Origin: Physcia stellaris
Taxonomy: Eukaryota; Ascomycota; Lecanoromycetes; Caliciales; Physciaceae
Direction of reading: 5' to 3'
NCBI GenBank assembly: GCA_018902385.1
Contig: JABSSW010000009.1
Coordinates: forward strand, 124,001-188,000
Length of the DNA stretch: 64,000 nucleotides
Shown here: positions 44,796-59,263 of the stretch, one piece after another
How positions within the stretch are numbered: the stretch's first letter is position 1
Layout: each line of letters opens with the position of its first letter
The notes under the pieces: generated by a model
Seen by the model: the letters and a program-made list of their open reading frames with translations, nothing else
Told to the model about the DNA's origin: nothing
The model's database searches: none
Program-made: the position numbers and the translations under genes

Positions 44796-46747
44796 TCATT
44801 CTTCGCTGTCCGACTCGTTTGAGCTGAGACAACTCTCTGCACCCTCTTCTTCTTCTTCACCAGCGCTAACAACTCGTTCTTCTGGTAAACAAGCCTCTAG
44901 GTTGTCAAGATCAGAAATTTTCTTTGGAGAGATGCCCTTCACGGCAGTAATCTTCTAGTGCGTTAGGACCGAGCGTTTTGACCATTTTGCGGATACTCTT
45001 GAGGTACGGGGCCAATTTTTTCAATGCCAGCCGCTGATTATCTTTCAATTTCTTAGCGATCAGGTAAGCACCAATTCCTATCATTCAGAACACGTTAGCT
45101 TGAACAAACTTTGGCCGCACTCTACTGACCGGCAAGAATGAACACCATGATGACCCCTTGTCCTCCAAACCACTTCGCAACCTGATTCCACTTGCAACCC
45201 GAATGGTATTCCGCTTTGTAGCTCTTAATCTTAGCTTTTCGTTCGTCATCTGAAACGTTTCCAGCCTTGCGAGTTGCCAGAATCTCTAGATGCCAAGTAT
45301 AACTCTCGAGCTTCTTCCCGTCCTTGTCAGTCGCTATTTGCTTCTCAGCTTCCGTGTTGACAGTATCGAAGAGTCTCATCTGACCATAGGCACGATAAAT
45401 CTTGGCGACAGCCGTATGAGCGTGGGTTATTCGCAAGGCGTCATAGATATCGTCCGGATCCTTCAGGTCGCACGTTGATGGCATCCGATCGAGTTTCTGA
45501 GGATCTTCGATCTCGGCGAGGCGATTCTGGTGAAACCTCACGAGTGCTGATTGGACGCGGCCGAAATCCAACTTCTGGCACAGTTCGAATACAGAGGCTG
45601 ACTCGGGGTTCTGCATTATAGGGAAAGTTTCTCGGAACTTGGAGAGGATCTTTGCGTCTCCACGGATTAGGCCAACTTCGATCGAGTAGTTGAGCTCGGC
45701 TTTGCTGATCTGGGGCTCCATATGATCGGTTGATTGGCCCCTGTCTTTGGTGTTGTCGATTGCGCTAATCGATTGCTCATCGTTTTGGAGCGATGTTGTT
45801 TGATCTGGATTCTGCTCTAGTTGGGTGTTCGCTTGGACCTCCTCACTGAGCAGCTCGTGTGCCTCTCGATCCTTACACTCTGACTTTCTGTCATTGAGTA
45901 GCTTCAACCGAAGCGTACTTTCTGCTCCATCTTCCGACATGCCTGTTTGTTGATCGTGGGCCTGCAACTGACTTCCAGCTACAACGATGTCTCGTGATTC
46001 ATCAAAATCCATCTCAGCGGGATCGCTTTGATTATCCTCATCATCCTCATCTCTCTCTGCATCATTGCCTTCTTCTTCCAGCTGCTGCTGCTTATACTGA
46101 ACCATCGAATCTTCAAGCTCATGCTCAACGCCAGACTCTCGGACTGTCTTCTTCGCCTGACCCATTGCCCCTTCCACAGCCAACTCAACACCATCATCGC
46201 TTTCAGCATCTGAATTATCCACGGAAGATTTTGATGAATATGGTGGTGGCGGGCTATCATCAGCAGGATTGCAGACTGACCTCCTTGAACCCTTTTCGAT
46301 AACATCAGTCTTCGAACAGATCAATGAGCCACCAGAGAACTTTACCGACGTTCGAGCCGCCTCGAAAGCTCCTAAATTAGTCCCTTGCTTGGAACCTACT
46401 AGCTTCGCTTTCTTCGCGCTCCTCTCAGCTTGACCTTGCGTCTCTTCTTCACCGTCACAGTCATTACCCTCCTCTTCCGCAGCCTTTCTTTTCTCCTTCA
46501 TCTCGTTCTTCTCTTCCTTCCTCTTAGCCTCCAACGCCTGGACAGCCACCGCCGCTTTCTCCACCGCGAGCTTCAAGATCGAAGCCATCTTTTTCGGGTC
46601 ACGGTCGACCAGAAAGAGAAGGAATGACTTGAAAGAGTCATTATGGACGATCGCAGCTGCGGCATTCGCAGAGAGCTTGTGGATGCTTTCCTCCATGTAG
46701 AAGATTGTTTGGTCGCGCGTGTGGCGCTCGGATTGTTTCATGCCCAT
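44796..46747 (-). CDS. Nuclear-looking protein, paralogue A of a two-member family
   Basis: Exon 1 (46747-45130) and exon 2 (from 45077; intron 45129-45078, 52 nt) give 594 aa to the first stop at 44911. The N-terminal helix region includes SFKSFLLFLVDRDPKKMASI. Next come a Lys/Glu coiled-coil-like stretch and a basic RSAKKAKLV signal. A long acidic, Ser/Gln-rich middle follows (DERDEDDEDNQSDPAEMDFD-type). The folded C-terminal domain has DLKDPDDIYDALRITHAHTA and AEYHSGCKWNQVAKWFGGQG, ending VIMVFILAGIGAYLIAKKL. The same domain occurs in the gene at 57.8 kb with the intron at the same place, same phase and same length. The stop at 44911 follows an A4 run (44918-44921). With two more A (or one fewer) the frame goes on to ISDLDNLEACLPEE... 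and an acidic tail ending at 44796, matching the paralogue's tail. Function unknown. Confidence 0.65.
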
Positions 46748-48010
46748 GATGAGTCGGCCGATGGATTTATTTGGGATTGAGGGTGAGTAAGTACTCCTAT
46801 GTCGAAGGTAGTACTTAGTGTGATTGATTTGTGGGTGAGAGTCTGAGAGGAATAAGCCCGACGGCTGAGAAATGAGTCTAGGAACAGTGAGTCGGAAAGC
46901 TGGATAAAGTGAGTATTGATGAACGGCAACTGAACAAAGGGTGAGTGAAGTGCTTGCAGGATGAAACGACTAACCGAGGTTGATCAAGCTGAGACTATGG
47001 TGATCTGAGTCGGGAGAGCTTATAAACAACGCAGCAGGTGAGTGTATCAACCGCAAGCTGAAAGCTAGTGTTCGCGTGGAGCAACTAGGTTTTGAGAGAT
47101 AGTTGCTGGTACTAGTCAGTACTTTGTTTTAACAGGAAATCTGAGATAGGGAAGACTGCTTAGTGTCCAGGTTTCGAAATCACATTGTGCGATCTTTGAA
47201 CTCACCGCAGCCAATCTCTATAAATGCACAGCACAGCTTAGTCGCTTGGGATACTGTTACTGTAGAGCAACCAGAGTCGGACGAGACGATCAAGGAACCA
47301 CCAATGTGCAAAGATGTGATGTACTCGTGGGCGTATGAAAGGTCACGGAAGCTTTCGCTTAAAGGTGAATCGTTATTCACAGGTATGGTATCTATGTCTA
47401 CGTAGGTACTTCCCTAGGCTAACTTCGCGCTGAAATAGCGAAATTGTGACGGATTGCTAGCGAGCTGTTGAGATGGGAGGGACTCGATTGTTACTCACGC
47501 AGCTTGGTGAAGTAAGCCTGGCGTCATAGCATCCATGGGGTATCTGAGGTTGATGGACAGGCATAATGATGTAAATACTCCGGTCTCGAATTACTTGATG
47601 TTCGAGGCATGCGATCAGATCATACTCTGGTGAATATTTCTTCTAAGAGCTTTTGATCATCTTCCTTTTACGTATCGTGTCTTATGATTCAATCATGTTG
47701 TCTGTCTTCTTTATTCTCGCTTTCGCAAGACCTAAATCTCATCAATATAGATTTTACAACTCGTGTATAAAGCAAGAGCCTCTCCATATTATATCATCCA
47801 TAAATATATGGCTATACTAAGTCAACTCTTTTTCTCTCTCCTTTTATCTTCTCTCCATCACTTCTTTCACAAGATTTAATCATCCTCCAGTCCAAACCAG
47901 TGCTTTTTTTCTCTCAAGAAACCCAACCCCCACGTATATATCCCAAAATTTCAAGCTCATTCATCAGCTATATTTATGTCGCAATTTGACTCTCATCAAA
48001 CCAGAGATTG
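46748..48010. other. Promoter-side spacer running into the AT-rich island
   Basis: No gene is seen. Base composition falls gradually toward AT from about 47.6 kb, but AG/CT/CC/GG dinucleotides are still normal here, unlike inside the element that starts at 48011. Confidence 0.4.
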
Positions 48011-48140
48011 TTAATTCGTCCAGGCTAGACGTGAATGCTAATGCAGAAATGACGAAATGAAAGAAATTTGAAAGAATTGACCTTCTAGTTAAATAAAAAA
48101 TCAATGTCTCATTTTTTTCATTTTTCATCTTTTCTCTCTT
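48011..48140 (+). repeat. Split direct repeat A1 (left end)
   Basis: It begins TTAATTCGTCCAGGC and matches A2 at 52436-52566 along its length. It retains more C and G than A2. Confidence 0.8.
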
Positions 48141-49105
48141 TTTTTGCAAATATTTGCAAAAGTCAATTGTAGAAATTTTCACATCAATTTTTGATGTTGC
48201 ATATTTCAATTTTTCGATTTTCGCATATTTTTTGCTGTAATATTTCGCTCGACTTAATTAAAATTCGATTTCGTTGATTTTTTCGTCGTCGCAATAATGT
48301 TTGTCGATATCAAATTCATTTTCATTTCAAACAAAAGCAATGTTGTCGTCGTCAAAAAAAACAATGACAACGATGCATTCAAATTCAAATTCAACAAATT
48401 TGCAATTTTCAAACGAATCATTTTCGACGTAAAAAATCGTAATCGAATTGAAAAATTTGTTTCACGTTTTCGTTTCATTTCAACGCGTTCATTTAGAAAC
48501 ATTTCTCGTTTCGTTCGTTTTCGAATGTTTTTTTTTTTTCGTTTGATCATTTCGAAAATCAAATCGAAAACGTAAATGAAAACGATTTCAACGTCATAAA
48601 TTTTGATTTCATCGATTTCGACAACGACGACGACGACGCATTCGACGACGACGAATTTCAAATTCGACGATCACGCGCACGCGAAAAATTCTCAAATAAC
48701 GAAAATTTCGTTCAGAAAAAAAATCTTCGTCGTAAAATATTTTTTCAAAAAAATAAAAACGTATCAAAAGAAATTGAATGAATTCATTTTCATTCAACGT
48801 ACGTTGTTTTCGTTGTTTTTTTTTTCACATTTTTCAAGTTCGTATTTCGTTATCGCGTTCACGATTCAAACGATCGAAATTCGTACGAACTTTTTACACA
48901 TGATTCATGATTCGAAATATTTCAAAATGAAACGAATATTTGTTAACGTGTCGTTTCGATTTTTGCAAAACGTTTATCACGATCGTCTGAATGTCAAAAA
49001 TCTTTTCAAATTCATTTTTTTTTTAATTGCATTAAAAGTCGTTGTCGATACGCGTTCAGAATTTTTCAAAAATATTTTTTTTTTGTTGATGACGATGAAA
49101 ATGTA

Positions 49106-49544
49106 TTGCAACGTTGTTTTCGAATTCACTCATTCGAACATTCAACACAAATTGAATTTCGTCATGAATGCGTATCGCATTCGTATCATGAAAACGTATT
49201 TTTACAAAACGTGAACGTCGATCGTGACGTGACACGAAAAAAATTTGATTCGAATCATTCGCACAAATCAAAACGATTCGATCAATTGATTGATCAAAAT
49301 CGACTTCATCGAGTGAAAATTGAAAAATATCGTCGTCGTCGAATCAAACAAAAAGACGATTGAATATCAATTTTTCGTTTCACGCGAATTCAAAAATAAA
49401 CGTATTACAATTCGCAACGATGTTTGTGTTGCGTTCAACAACAATATTCGTTGCGACGAAAATTGCAAATACAAACATATCTGTACAAAATGTCAACAAA
49501 AAAATCACGACAAATTCGAATGTATCAACAAAATCATCAAATGA
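49106..49544 (+). pseudogene. Gag-like segment with CCCH/zinc-knuckle motif
   Basis: Two overlapping frames carry a polar, Arg/Lys-rich region (RFDQLIDQNRLHRVKIEKYR). A cysteine cluster follows with CDENCKYKHICTKCQQKNH and DKFEC at about 49450-49523 (C-x3-C-x5-C-x2-C-x5-H-x4-C). Knuckles of this type accompany the recombinase and reverse transcriptase in fungal YR retroelements. The upstream frame 48603-49214 may be more Gag. Frames are broken. Confidence 0.55.
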
Positions 49545-49770
49545 TTAATCGTTTTTTTTTTTTTCGTTCAATTTTTTTTTTTCATTTTTTCTCTTTTCGA
49601 ATTATTCATTTCGTATGATCATGTCGATTTCGATTGAGTGATCGTCAAAAAATTTTTTGTATGATGTCGTTCTCGAGAATACATTTGATTTCGAAATCAA
49701 AATGTCATTGAAAACGACAAAATGAAATTTTTATTTAAGAAATCATTTTGATCGAAATTTCGTTAACAAA

Positions 49771-50850
49771 TTGTTTGACATTATTAAGCGAAACGCGAAC
49801 ATCGAATATATCGATGATAAAAAATTTCGCATTTTCAACAATCACAATTCGATCAACGAAATTTTCGATTTATTCATTGTTGATTTCGTCAAACAAATGA
49901 AAATTCATCGATTGACTAAATTACGCGATAATTTTTTTTTTTTTACGTATGTTTTTCGCTAAATCTGATTTCAAAACACGACGACGATTGAAAACGTATT
50001 CATGATTTATCATTTTTCAAAAACGATTCGATCAATGAAAACATTATACTCGACGCAAAAATTTTGAAATACGTCACGTTCGATAAAATCATTGCAATAT
50101 TCATATATCAAAAACGAAATGTTGTAATGTTCAAAAAAAAAATTCGCAAACGCGTTCAAACACATTTTTGTGATCGTATGAAATCGTTGATTATTCGATT
50201 TTTGTTGAAACGACGAATTTTACATGAAATTATTTTTATTTTTCGATTTTCGAATCGCTTTTTTTTTTTTGATTTATTTGTTAAGACGTTGCATTAAATT
50301 CTCGTTAAAATAAATCATTTTCGCATCGTTTTTCATTATTTAAACGACTTTTTTTTCATCATGAAATCTGACATCGATTTTGAATTATACAAAATCATTT
50401 GACGAAATATTTGCAATAAATTCGATTTCGAAACAAACGCGAAAAAAAGAAATTTGACACAAAATTCGAATTTCTGAACATCGAACTCGATAGCGAAATC
50501 ATGAAAATTCGATTTTTTTCAATCAAATTGACGAGAACAATGAAATTTGTCAACGTGATTTTCATTCAAAATGTTTTCACATTTCGTCAAATCGATTTTT
50601 TCGTGAATTTTTTATTTTTTTGTGCAAAAGTCGTGATTTTTGAACGATTTTTTTTCATTTTTTTGTATCGAGTTCGCGATCACATTCGAAACGTCAATAA
50701 ATCATGCAAATTCAACGAAATCATGCGAACAAATTTACGTTGATGACAAATGTTTTTTTCACGATAAAACGATATCAAAGTTTTGCGAGAAATATTTTCA
50801 CGATCGTCAAATCATATTTGAACAAACGTTTCGAATAATTGAAACATAAA
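49771..50850 (+). pseudogene. Reverse transcriptase remains, DIRS type
   Basis: Motifs lie in series over several frames. At 49771-49962 NANIEYIDDKKFRIFNNHNS and MKIHRLTKL correspond to the N-terminal 'IGY...PNH...GRIHGP' block. At 49974-50110 KHDDD, a stop (TGA where Trp is expected, 49989-49991), RIHDLSFFKNDSINEN and LKYVTFD follow. At 50200-50297 there is FRFSNRFFFFDLFVKTLH. YLND, the mutated YLDD catalytic box, is at 50337-50348. Then come IMKSDIDFELYKII and, at 50501-50740, KIRFFSIKLTRTMKFVN, TFRQIDFFVNFLFFCAKVVI and YRVRDH. The order and spacing fit a DIRS-type reverse transcriptase. Several Trp codons read TGA or TAA and Gly codons read GAT/AAC. Confidence 0.7.
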
Positions 50851-50879
50851 CGATTTCTGATTTCGTGTTTTTGACGACG

Positions 50880-51240
50880 AATCACTCGAAAATTTCAATT
50901 GACGTTATTCAACGCGTTTTCGCAATCGACAATTGAATATTCAAATTAAAAAAATGCAAACGATGTTACACGCTTTGCGTCAATGATTATCTCATTTCGA
51001 AAACAACAAAATCGTCATTCATTGCGACAATTAAATCGTTTGTGTCGAATTCGACAAAAATACGATGCGTGATTCAACAATGATATTTTTCGTGACGTAA
51101 TCATGTTGTTCGTTTTTCATGATATTCTGATTGAAATGATGTGATTAAATTCGAAATTCAATCATTTCGTTGATTTACTTTCACGTGATGAACACGATAA
51201 AATCGCTGACGAATATTCGCAATTGCAAATTCATCATGAT
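50880..51240 (+). pseudogene. RNase H remains
   Basis: In the + strand LHALRQ, SHFENNKIVIHCDN (HCDN at 51021-51032) and further polar segments resemble the RNase H stretch that follows the reverse transcriptase in DIRS-order elements. Stops break it immediately after HCDN. Confidence 0.5.
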
Positions 51241-51464
51241 CAATTTTAAATTTCGATTTTTCGTTCATCGTTGACGCATCGAAATATTAATATGTTCAAA
51301 TGTCATTGAATAAAACGATCGTTCGATTTTTGTGATAAAATTTGATTTCAAACACGCGAAAAATTCACGATTCGATCGTCAATTCATACGTGAAATTTTG
51401 CGTTTTTGACAAATTTCAAACGTTTTCGCTCACGTGATTTTGCATTGTCGAATGAATAAATTCG

Positions 51465-52215
51465 TTGAAATTTCGAAAATTCAAATCGAAAACGATCAAA
51501 ACGTATATCATTGATTTACGTTTCGTTTGCGTCGATCGAAAATATTCTGATTTCATCGTTTTCAATGAGTTTTTGTTGCAACGCGAAATCAACGACATCA
51601 AACGTATGTATGACGAAAACGAAACACGTGAACGCAAAACGATTATTCGTGATATTTTGTTAAAAATTTTGCAATTTTTCGATATTCGCATCAAAAAAAA
51701 TGTTACATTGCACGTCGCATTTTGTTTGATTTTTGCAAACTTTTTGCGTATCGATGAATTTACATAATTTGATGTTGATCGCACGTTCAATTTCGACAAT
51801 TGATTTGTTATTCGTTTTTCGATGATTTTTTTGACGATTATTTCGTTTTAACGTTTTCTATTTCGAAAATCGACTCATTTCGCAAAGAGATTTCGATATT
51901 CATTGCAATCACGAATGATGTTGTTTGTGCAATAATCTCATTACGTCATTTGTTTTTGCATTTCTCGATTTCGAAGTACGCTTTTCTGTTTCAAATCGAG
52001 AAATCAAAAATTTTCAATGTTCAATTCGTCATCAAAATACTACGCAAAACGATCGAGAATCTGAAACACGATGACAATTATTCAAAGCATTTCTTTCGAC
52101 GTGATGCGACAATCGAAGCTCGCAATGCAAACGTTTCGAACGATTTGATTCAATTTCTAAAAAAATGAAAATCGAAAACGTTTTTGCTGTATATCGAAAT
52201 CAACAAAAAATACGT
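51465..52215 (+). pseudogene. Tyrosine recombinase remains with recognisable active-site residues
   Basis: At 51465-51767: KTIKTYIIDLRFVCVDRKYS, RERKTIIRDILLKILQFFDI and HVAFCLIFANFLRIDEFT. These match the 'tRe.itrdlL...AFclaFagFLRigEfT' core of YR-retroelement recombinases, with the first catalytic Arg in LRIDEF. After one or two shifts (51800-52168): KIDSFRKEISIFIAITND, ISLRHLFLHF, FVIKILRKTI and NYSKHFFRRDATIEARNANV. The last holds the HxxR pair (H-F-F-R). The nucleophile Tyr follows in LLYIEIN (Tyr codon 52190-52192) after a TGA (52166-52168) where Trp is expected. R...HxxR...Y is thus readable, though translation is broken. Confidence 0.75.
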
Positions 52216-52314
52216 TTTTCGAACATCGCGTCATCATCAAAACGATTGAATTGTTTTTTTTTTCGTTTTGTTTAAACGACGACGTCGTTTTTCGACGTGT
52301 TTTGAAATTGTGAA

Positions 52315-52440
52315 AAATAATCAAATTTTGAAAATTGTTTTGTTGAATTGTTTTCGCTCATGCAAAAAATTTACAAATCGATCAAACTCAAAACATCAAA
52401 ATTTTTGTACATAGCAATGAAAAAAATACGAAACATTAAT
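52315..52440 (+). repeat. Split direct repeat B1
   Basis: It matches B2 (52670-52794) over about 125 bp; for example ATTGTTTTGTTGAATTG versus ATTGTTTTGCTGAATTG. It abuts A2 with a shared TTAAT. Confidence 0.8.
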
Positions 52441-52566
52441 TCGTTCAAACTAAACGTGAATGTTAATGCAAAAATGACGAAATGAAAAAAATTTGAAAAA
52501 ATTGATTTTTTAGTTAAATAGAAAATCAATGTTTCATTTTTTTCATTTTTCATTTTTTCTCTTTTC
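52436..52566 (+). repeat. Split direct repeat A2
   Basis: Second copy of A1. Nearly every difference from A1 is C-to-T or G-to-A in A2, in CpC or CpT context. Confidence 0.8.
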
Positions 52567-52669
52567 TTTTGTTTCGTTCATTCATTTTTTGATTTTTTTC
52601 GACGTTTTTCATCTTTTTATGAAATTTTGTTTTTTTTTTCGCTTCAAAATCCAGTCGCAAAAACAAAAA

Positions 52670-52794
52670 AAATAATCAGATTTTGAAAATTGTTTTGCTG
52701 AATTGTTTTCGTTTATGCAGAAAATTTACAAATCGATCAAATTCAAAACATCAAAGTTTTTGTACATAACAATGAAAAAAGTACGAAACATTAA
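52670..52794 (+). repeat. Split direct repeat B2 (right end)
   Basis: Second copy of B1. It ends ACGAAACATTAA, after which the sequence leaves the repeat. Confidence 0.8.
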
Positions 52795-53059
52795 CGTAAA
52801 GCAGAAAGACTTTTCGTAGTCGAAATTCTTGTTTCAGAAAGTTTTTCTGTCACATATTATCTCATCATATGCAAAGAAACAAATCAGACTCAACGATTTT
52901 CGAAAAAAAAAATGTTCTTGAGAAAAATAATGAATGATTGAAATTCTTTTTCGATGATGAAAAGATGAAAATATCGTATCATCAAAAAAATATTGATAAC
53001 GATTTTCTAAATTGAAATTTTCATTTTGACGAAGAAAAATGTGTTCGTTCATACATCAA

Positions 53060-53170
53060 TAAATTTATTGATCAGTCAACGTACGTTCATTCGTCAATCA
53101 ACGCGTTCATTGTTCAATGAACAAACATGATCAATGAACGCGTTTATTGATCAATCAACGTTTTATTGAC
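53060..53170. repeat. Palindromic ATGAACG/CGTTCAT cluster, left block
   Basis: It contains GTTCATTGTTCAATGAAC (a near-palindrome) and TCAATGAACGCGTTTATTG, followed by TCAATCAACGTT. The last two recur at 53749-53780 in less mutated form (GGCCAA in place of GATCAA). Confidence 0.55.
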
Positions 53171-53744
53171 GAATGATTTAATGTATTGTCAAATGCACGA
53201 AAATGTTGCTGTTTCAACGCATGTTGCTTTTGTGATCTGACGTACTAACTGAAAATCGACTTTTTCGCAAATTTCTCGTCGACAATGTGCAGCGAAATTT
53301 TCTTTTTCTGCAGTCAAATTTCTATCATATTAATCTAATGCTTATACAATTGCACAACGCATGTTTCATCGCAAATGATTTCCGAAACATCAGAAAGTTT
53401 ACGGCGATCGAAAATAGACTTTACATCTGATTGTTTAGCTTTGAATGAGTTTGACAAGACTCTATTTTAACTCTATAGATGAACTGAATGATGATGAGAC
53501 GAGATATGAGAATTGTGATAAAATTTTTGATGTTTTGAAATGGGCAGACCTCAATGATCTGTCGAGAACTCGAAACGACTTCAAGCGTCACGGCTGCAGA
53601 ATTCGAAGCGACTTTCATTGCAGCTTGCAGATTGCAAAGCTCTTTGCCTTAGTCCGCATGCGAGATTCCTGCAAAATAAAAGCAGCAATGATAAATACGT
53701 TGATTTGACAATAAACGAGATGGTTTGCCAATGATCTGAATATT

Positions 53745-57840: not shown

Positions 57841-59263
57841 ATGACGATCAAAACAGAAGACGCCCTCTACCGCAAGAGAATAGTGCAATGGACCACGGAT
57901 GCACCTCTGAAGCTGTCATACCAGTCATGCCAAACGCTCGCCAAAAAGGCGCCGTTCAAAAAATTCATCAGCTTCATGGCAGAGCAAGCGCCCGGTACCA
58001 TGGGGCCGTTCTTGAGGAGAGTTGTGAAGAAGATGCCGGTGGCCACAGCAGAAGACGAGTGCAACATCGGTTCGAAGAGGTCGGCCGCCGAGCGCGAGGA
58101 GACTCGCAACGCTAAGAAAGCCAAATTCGAAGTGACGAAGGATTACGGATGTGAAATCTTTGGTTCCAGTCGCGACTTTGAGACAGGCTTGCGTGATGAA
58201 GATGGATGTTTGGATCGAGACAAAGACGATCAGGCTAAGTTCGAGAAAACGAAAGGTTTCGGATGTGGAGTCTTTGGGTCCAGTTGCGACTTTGAGGCAG
58301 GGTCGGGTGATGAAGAGAGCCTCTTTCTGGACGCTGAATGTTTGGATCGAGACCAAGACGATAAGGAAAAGTCAACAAAGAAATGTCCCCGTCAGCTGGA
58401 TGACTATACAGCCTCTGAGATTGAGGACGGGCTCGTTGAAGCAGACCCGAAGATCTGGAAGCTGTTCATGATCGAATTTGCCAAGATAGCACGCAAGCCA
58501 CGCGATCGAAAAGACGGCTCACGGGTTTTGGAAGCTTGCAGGAAGCTGGGGTCCGAGAATGTTGTTACTGAAGTGTGTCGGGTCCTCCGCACTGCGTCCA
58601 AGAAGCCTCACTCTGTGCCTCAGGGCTATGACGTCAAAGATCCTCAAAAGATCCTACAGACTCTACACCAGATCGCTCGCGTTGGTCAAGAGTTGGGTAT
58701 TCACAATGCCTATGTGCAGATGATGTTGGCTACCGTGGTCAACTCTATGATCGACGACAAGCAGTTTCAAGACTACAAGGAGGCTATTAGTCACCTGGCA
58801 GACTGCTACGTCCGCTCTTCAGCAGGGCAAGGTCAGGAAATCCAGCAAGTAAAGAATAAGTATTGCGCGGACTACAACCGAGGGCAGAGATGGTTGGATA
58901 TCGCCAAATCTTTTGACGGGACAGGAATCGTATTGGCAATTGTCATGACAGGTAGGACAACAAGTCCAAATACCACGATTTGGAGTCCCACTAATGTGCC
59001 TAGGTATTGGAGCTACAACCGTCAGCGAGGCTTGGACGATATTTGAGAGAGCCTGTTTTGAGAAGGTGGCGAAGTATATGCCAGGCTTGAAAGAAATCGT
59101 CAAGATTCTTGGAGCCGACGCCTTGAAAGTTTATTGTGAGAATGGCTGTCTTGCTGCCGAAAAGATCGAGGAGCTCGAAGGATTGAATGACCCAGCTTCA
59201 GACGAGGATGATGAGGAGGCATCTCAAGACGACGACAGCGATGGCGAGGAATCAGACCACTGA
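57841..59263 (+). CDS. Nuclear-looking protein, paralogue B of a two-member family
   Basis: Exons 57841-58951 and 59004-59263 (intron 52 nt) give an undamaged 456-aa product. The N-terminal region (APFKKFISFMAEQAPGTMGP) corresponds to that of paralogue A and is followed by a basic RNAKKAKFEVTK signal. An internal two-copy repeat follows: KDYGCEIFGSSRDFETG and KGFGCGVFGSSCDFEAG, each ending CLDRDxDD. The C-terminal domain has YDVKDPQKILQTLHQIARVG, then KYCADYNRGQRWLDIAKSFD and GTGIVLAIVMTGIGATTVSE, with a helical YMPGLKEIVKILGADALKVY and an acidic tail (SDEDDEEASQDDDSDGEES). It lines up with paralogue A from end to end. The hydrophobic GIVLAIVMTG is too short and polar-flanked to call a membrane helix with confidence. 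No known family is recognised. Confidence 0.75.

Follow-up and report, generated by a model that had tools for sequence, protein, structure and literature searches.

Repeats of Physcia stellaris carry a C-to-T mutation signature at CpC and CpT that resembles repeat-induced point mutation

A repeated element depleted of CpC and CpT

The stretch of DNA analysed here (64,000 nucleotides, positions 124,001 to 188,000 of contig JABSSW010000009.1 in the Physcia stellaris assembly GCA_018902385.1; hereafter the window) contains a mutated repeated element of about 4.8 kb at 48011-52794 on the + strand, which is AT-rich and poor in CpC and CpT whichever strand is read. Over its 4784 bp (29% G+C, counted in the window) CC occurs 3 times, GG once, CT 65 times and AG 45 times, alongside 325 CA and 265 TG (CA+TG 590), 345 CG and 182 TA. 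The corresponding observed/expected ratios were 0.02 for CC, 0.22 for CT, 1.19 for CA, 3.40 for CG and 0.30 for TA, with TC enriched at 1.49, compared with 0.81-1.12 for CC, CT, CA and CG in the 10-kb flanks. When the bases of the island were shuffled 500 times, CC+GG averaged 203 and never fell below 168, against 4 observed, and CT+AG averaged 495 with a minimum of 446, against 110 observed. The surviving CC/GG dinucleotides lie at 48020, 48023, 48081 and 52651, the first three inside the direct repeat A1, near the left edge of the element. The single-copy left flank (47011-48010) is undepleted, with 15-22 CC/GG per 250 bp right up to the element edge. An earlier note, made from the letters alone, had described CC, GG, CT and AG as nearly absent and CA, TG and CG as frequent, which the counts bear out; its statement that TA is not inflated understates the matter, TA being low.

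The element has the order A1-body-B1-A2-B2, that is, split direct repeats, with A1 at 48011-48146, B1 at 52313-52439, A2 at 52436-52571 and B2 at 52668-52794, all on the + strand. A1, the least mutated part of the element, is 88% identical to A2, and B1 is 93% identical to B2. All 16 differences between A1 and A2 are C/T or G/A, falling at 3 CpC and 13 CpT sites with none at CpA or CpG, and the 9 differences between B1 and B2, again all C/T or G/A, comprise 8 at CpT and 1 at CpA. Both comparisons agree with what had been noted by eye, namely that A1/A2 changes lie at CpC or CpT and that B1/B2 changes are nearly all CpT with one CpA.

Split direct repeats are a feature of PAT/Ngaro-type tyrosine-recombinase retroelements (DIRS order). 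Three degenerate stretches were also read by eye on the + strand: a zinc-knuckle-like stretch, CKYKHICTKCQQKNHDKFEC, in one frame at 49459-49524; a reverse transcriptase-like stretch (RIHDLS..SIN) at 49980-50070; and a tyrosine recombinase-like stretch (FLRIDEFT) at 51700-51770, the latter two resembling DIRS-type motifs. A Pfam search of the three pieces gave no support for these protein domains (E<=1 for the reverse transcriptase and recombinase pieces). Repeat order and by-eye remnants together suggest a PAT/Ngaro-type retroelement, an identity that Pfam does not confirm.

Reach of the signature through the genome

The genome searched comprises 44 Mb in 147 contigs, in which the middle kilobase of the element has at least 41 matches. 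At 20 of 20 other places of the element (L009-L028, the L018 copy being split) the BLAST-matched pieces were depleted likewise, with CC at 0.00-0.09, CT at 0.05-0.43, CA at 1.08-1.23 and CG at 2.85-4.77 of expectation. Two copies, L025 and L027, had appeared less mutated (CC 0.64 and 0.77) when hand-set spans took in flanking sequence; their BLAST-matched pieces gave 0.01 and 0.03. In 16 locally filtered close pairs of copies, CpT was the main differing context (0.70-0.95 of sites) and CpA a minor one (0.07-0.22), with CpG at 0.01-0.11; few CpC sites are left, giving 0 to 12 differences per pair.

A wider sample was taken from reverse transcriptase loci, of which 30 were fetched as the best of 150 scored hits and the composition of the central 1200 bp was determined. 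Depletion was found at 24 of them (CC 0.00-0.42, CT 0.00-0.85, CA 0.95-1.37, CG 1.97-4.21, TA 0.33-0.55), while the other 6 were undepleted (CC 0.86-1.00). A deficit of CA/TG together with an excess of TA was found neither in the window nor at any of the 24 mutated loci. Internal stop codons point the same way. Since TGG reads CCA on the other strand, loss of CpC converts a Trp codon to TGA and loss of CpA converts it to TAG, so that an excess of TGA is predicted by CpC-first mutation; across 297 scored hits to three transposon domains in the genome, 695 internal TGA, 137 TAA and 6 TAG were counted, in keeping with the proposal that Trp codons had become TGA rather than TAG. The CpC/CpT signature thus extends far beyond the window and beyond any one family; two Ty3-like families and a dispersed ribosomal DNA (rDNA) copy, examined below, share the preference seen in the window element.

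Direction and relative rates in families with an unmutated copy

Three Ty3-like copies, L033, L034 and L035, are unmutated (51-53% G+C) and lie in the genome beside heavily mutated relatives. L033 (51% G+C), from a family separate from the window element, served as a yardstick for 11 fetched relatives, all mutated, using columns with a local match of at least 80% in which C>T and G>A were scored as match. Changed sites amounted to 4325 of 4420 for CpC, 4001 of 4611 for CpT, 320 of 4393 for CpA and 137 of 4052 for CpG, with per-copy ranges of 0.96-1.00, 0.76-0.98, 0.03-0.15 and 0.00-0.08, respectively. The proposed CpC/CpT preference was therefore upheld, with the correction that CpA is a weak target (3-15% per copy in this family) rather than one left alone. 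Within the L033-L062 family this weak CpA target favours a following pyrimidine (CAC 0.15 and CAT 0.09, against CAA 0.05 and CAG 0.03).

The copy L050 is the clearest case. Of its 917 substitutions relative to L033, 916 are C>T or G>A, 1 is T>C or A>G and none is a transversion; the changed sites are 440 of 442 CpC, 450 of 461 CpT, 26 of 443 CpA and 0 of 408 CpG. With 1774 G+C in the yardstick, over half of the G:C pairs have been altered. A load of directed changes this large, free of background substitutions, would imply a fast burst rather than slow decay.

The second Ty3-like family offered a dose series, in which L063-L067 differ from L034 at 0.77-0.96 of CpC, 0.45-0.78 of CpT, 0.02-0.06 of CpA and 0.01-0.02 of CpG sites, C:G to T:A changes making up 178-263 of 194-277 substitutions. 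As a control, the two unmutated copies L034 and L035 are separated by 176 substitutions, including 42 transversions, and C>T stands at 0.02-0.04 in every context. Expressed relative to CpT, the rates in the two Ty3-like families are 1.9-2.6 for CpC, 0.03-0.04 for CpA and 0.01-0.02 for CpG. Two further pairs were set aside as blurred by age: L035/L049 (CpC 0.75, CpT 0.61, CpA 0.29, CpG 0.27; 330 transversions) and L047/L060 (CpC 0.87, CpT 0.65, CpA 0.21, CpG 0.12; 183 transversions). The pairs L068/L069, L070/L071 and L061/L033 barely align (13, 63 and 211 columns) and were uninformative.

Sequence context, strands and surviving sites

In the L033 family the base 5' of the target has a slight effect, both for CpC (ACC 0.99, CCC 0.97, GCC 0.97, TCC 0.98) and for CpT (ACT 0.84, CCT 0.89, GCT 0.84, TCT 0.90), and the second base on the 3' side has little influence on either. 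Both strands are mutated: on the reference strand L050 shows 389 C>T and 527 G>A changes, and CpT survives at 5 of 196 sites on the + strand and 6 of 266 on the - strand. Dependence on the 3' base, with the 5' base of minor influence, is the behaviour of methyltransferases that read CpN, and mutation of both strands with a weak 5' effect fits a mutator of the C5-methyltransferase type, as in repeat-induced point mutation (RIP), rather than ultraviolet (UV) damage or an APOBEC-like deaminase. In 9 copies the surviving CpT sites showed no clustering, such as processivity might leave, beyond that of shuffles. Survivors common to copies were mostly 1.5-2.5 times above chance in these 9, which may reflect resistance of certain sites or a partly shared history.

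A dispersed rDNA copy as an independent yardstick

The sole 5.8S hit of the assembly lies inside an AT-rich rDNA copy (L072:1-3154; contig C41, around 45899-46052), which allowed a comparison independent of transposons, with Rfam consensus columns that have a conserved neighbour as the yardstick. In six large-subunit blocks, both 5.8S blocks and one small-subunit block, 24 of 26 CpC and 16 of 32 CpT sites were changed, compared with 0 of 24 CpA and 0 of 28 CpG, while 206 of 209 conserved A/U columns were unchanged. The remaining blocks, which are partly ill-aligned, gave CpC 5/8, CpT 4/5, CpA 1/6 and CpG 0/8, bringing all blocks to CpC 29/34, CpT 20/37, CpA 1/30 and CpG 0/36. Here the rate of CpC relative to CpT is 3.7. 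As the only 5.8S hit is mutated at CpC and CpT, a barcode search of the assembly would run into a damaged rDNA copy. Ribosomal DNA outside the array is a known victim of RIP, there mainly at CpA (PMC5555474).

The right edge, the linker and flanking genes

The earlier note had ended the depleted region at 52794, whereas depletion of CpC and CpT extends further, to about 53500, because a second dispersed repeat follows (53040-53700); this repeat is partly CpC/CpT-depleted, and 52800-53700 has at least 119 matches. Between the two repeats lies a linker of 245 bp (52795-53039) with 0 CC/GG, compared with a shuffle mean of 8.2, a count of 0 being reached in 1 of 5000 shuffles. Among the candidates scored, linker bases 52800-53015 (216 bp) matched only themselves. 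The linker thus seems single-copy, and it is possible that mutation spread into it between the neighbouring repeats. In Neurospora, RIP leaks into a single-copy linker between repeats by a DIM-2-dependent path (PMC12543289), and the depletion of the linker is consistent with leakage of that kind. In the DNA examined, mutation is otherwise confined to repeats, the left flank and the coding flanks being normal and 24 of the 30 reverse transcriptase loci mutated; the short linker is the exception.

Two open reading frames that lack a Pfam match, at 45122-46747 (- strand) and 57841-59046 (+ strand), flank the island. Their C-terminal stretches look similar by eye, and they possibly belong to a small gene family.

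Candidate methyltransferases

The earlier note had advised a search for methyltransferase genes of the RID and DIM-2 types, and both are present. The PF00145 profile identified three C5-methyltransferase genes in the genome: L029, L030 and L031/L032. L029 and L031 score above the PF00145 cut-off and carry the catalytic PCQ in motif IV (SPPCQSFS in L029, SPPCQFFS in L031), and in motif VI they have MEET (EET) and LEQT (EQT), respectively, in place of ENV. EQT or EET instead of ENV is a mark of the Masc1/RID group (PMC6709928), and by PCQ with EET/EQT we class L029 and L031/L032 as Masc1/RID-type. Their frames continue past one plausible intron to a KQIGNAVPP end (read by eye in L029), their base composition is ordinary, and L029 and L031 are diverged paralogues, identical at 39% of 195 aligned residues and at 34% of 149. 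With regard to the BAH domain, Pfam reports PF00145 only in the main exons of L029 and L031 taken alone, and no BAH domain in L030 at E<=0.001. The closest solved relative of L030 is PDB 9bap/9baq (E 4e-180), which we take to be Neurospora DIM-2, and L030 is accordingly classed by sequence as DIM-2-type.

Proposed mechanism and alternatives

We consider it likely that these repeats have undergone RIP-like mutagenesis with a nearly inverted context preference, best explained by a mutator that recognises repeats, probably a Masc1/RID-type enzyme of this genome. Such a mutator would be triggered by homology and act premeiotically, recognising repeated DNA and turning C to T on both strands. The target is C before a pyrimidine, CpC being converted about 2-4 times faster than CpT. 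Relative to CpT, conversion is slower by a factor of about 27-30 at CpA and about 60-100 at CpG, and it runs near to completion. The catalyst would most likely be one of the two candidate Masc1/RID-type C5-methyltransferases, and that enzyme would then have to read the base 3' of the target C differently from Neurospora RID. The earlier note had proposed a repeat-directed mutator with an unusual context; the context is borne out, and that the mutator is repeat-directed is well supported, short of proof, by the mutated DNA being repeated and single-copy flanks being spared. More tentatively, L029, the EET-bearing and most likely paralogue, might have evolved a site that reads C before pyrimidine, turning CpA-first into CpC-first RIP and gaining so much in efficiency that conversion of CpC and CpT is near-total within one or a few sexual cycles, with CpG untouched. 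If so, RIP context would be an evolvable, enzyme-encoded trait that could be mapped by methyltransferase swaps.

Several points weigh against this explanation. From 1,239 genomes surveyed, it has been concluded that CpA preference is common to RIP-like defences (PMC12543289); canonical RIP prefers CpA, so that either an exception or another machine is at work here. L034 and L035, which are 95% alike, show no sign of mutation despite mutated relatives in the genome, indicating that the process does not act on all repeats simultaneously. An unfiltered alignment of all copies of the window element contained numerous polymorphic columns at CpA and CpG as well, the counts being CpC 18/18, CpT 298/299, CpA 391/519 and CpG 424/792 in group 1, and CpC 135/135, CpT 410/410, CpA 353/504 and CpG 386/773 in group 2. 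It was dropped as a rate estimate because five of its rows (L013, L015, L017, L025 and L027) contain transversions by the hundred, reflecting poor alignment or included flank, and was replaced by the locally filtered pairs and the yardstick families.

Among the alternatives, the one that survives best, though we regard it as unlikely, is a DIM-2-type enzyme that methylates heterochromatic repeats at CpT and CpC, the 5-methylcytosine then being lost to T. A gene of this type, L030, is present, and the depleted linker recalls the DIM-2-dependent path on single-copy DNA flanked by repeats (PMC12543289). A review describes Neurospora DIM-2 as methylating cytosines mostly outside CG, CpT being preferred, and older heterochromatic repeats as needing DIM-2 for RIP (PMC13297926). 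The fastest context here, however, is CpC, not CpT, and slow loss of methylcytosine implies ordinary substitutions too, whereas L050 combines 916 directed changes with no transversion.

Far less probable is an AID/APOBEC-like cytidine deaminase that edits replicating retroelements. C>T changes in a dinucleotide context, with retroelements among the victims, are what such an enzyme would leave, yet the two strands of L050 are alike in their surviving CpT (5/196 and 6/266) and the rDNA copy is mutated as well. Known enzymes of the AID/APOBEC class read the 5' base, which matters little here. A six-frame search of the genome found no APOBEC_N match at E<=1, a search that covers one family and in which introns may hide exons. 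We give equally little credence to an attack on all cytosines with CpA and CpG shielded, for instance by methylation. Near-complete conversion of CpC and CpT alongside near-complete sparing of CpG could be read in this way, but two systems would be required instead of one, the rates of CpC and CpT differ, and methylation of CpG normally speeds its mutation rather than slowing it. Undirected causes, namely UV damage (CpC and CpT being dipyrimidines), AT drift or a sequencing artefact, are the least credible, as UV also strikes the 3' C of TpC and the enrichment of TC in the island speaks against it, two unmutated copies of one family (L034/L035) lack a context bias, and an artefact would neither respect the borders of elements nor turn up again at 20 places.

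Comparison with known RIP systems

Repeat-recognising, RIP-like mutagenesis thus remains our preferred explanation. As in RIP, the changes are C:G to T:A with few others, are confined to repeats in the DNA examined and affect both strands; the canonical preference for CpA is absent, with 320 of 4393 CpA sites changed against 4325 of 4420 CpC in the L033 family. Frequent mutation of CpT has been reported for RIP-capable fungi in studies with RIPCAL (PMC2621366, PMC7882544), and the CpT half of the signature alone is thus not new. No report of CpC-first RIP with CpA spared was found in the excerpts of the open-access literature; a study of Ramichloridium luteum (PMC5602860; RIPCAL, CpC), outside this scope, may bear on the point. 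The usual RIP indices, TpA/ApT and (CpA+TpG)/(ApC+GpT), score loss of CpA and gain of TpA (PMC3828140, PMC2621366), and as the island has kept CpA and is low in TpA, screens with these indices would be expected to miss it. Once purified, RID has displayed no methyltransferase activity (PMC13297926); a near-binary context (changed fractions of about 0.98 for CpC and 0.87 for CpT, but 0.07 for CpA and 0.03 for CpG), together with two RID-type paralogues, provides a handle on how RID chooses its cytosines.

Among the systems described, repeats of the basidiomycete Microbotryum are mutated at CpG or TpCpG (PMC4352252); they share with those of P. stellaris a context-specific C>T change, and differ in that CpG is the best protected context here. 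Magnaporthe oryzae, Botrytis cinerea and Sclerotinia sclerotiorum show a CpT signature together with CpA (PMC4352252), and the EET triad seen in L029 is also that of B. cinerea RID (PMC6709928). P. stellaris resembles these species in having CpT as a main context and a RID-type gene, and differs from them in that CpC is mutated most and CpA hardly at all. In Trichoderma reesei RIP affects CpA and CpG about equally, above CpT, with CpC last (PMC5496416); repeats undergo C-to-T mutation in both species, in T. reesei in crosses, whereas here CpG is spared and CpC comes first. RID-dependent RIP of Neurospora crassa shares with the present case C:G to T:A mutation of both strands in repeats, sparing of the single-copy flank and the presence of RID- and DIM-2-type genes. 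In contrast to the N. crassa order of CpA>CpT>CpG>CpC (PMC5496416), however, the order in P. stellaris is CpC>CpT>>CpA>CpG.

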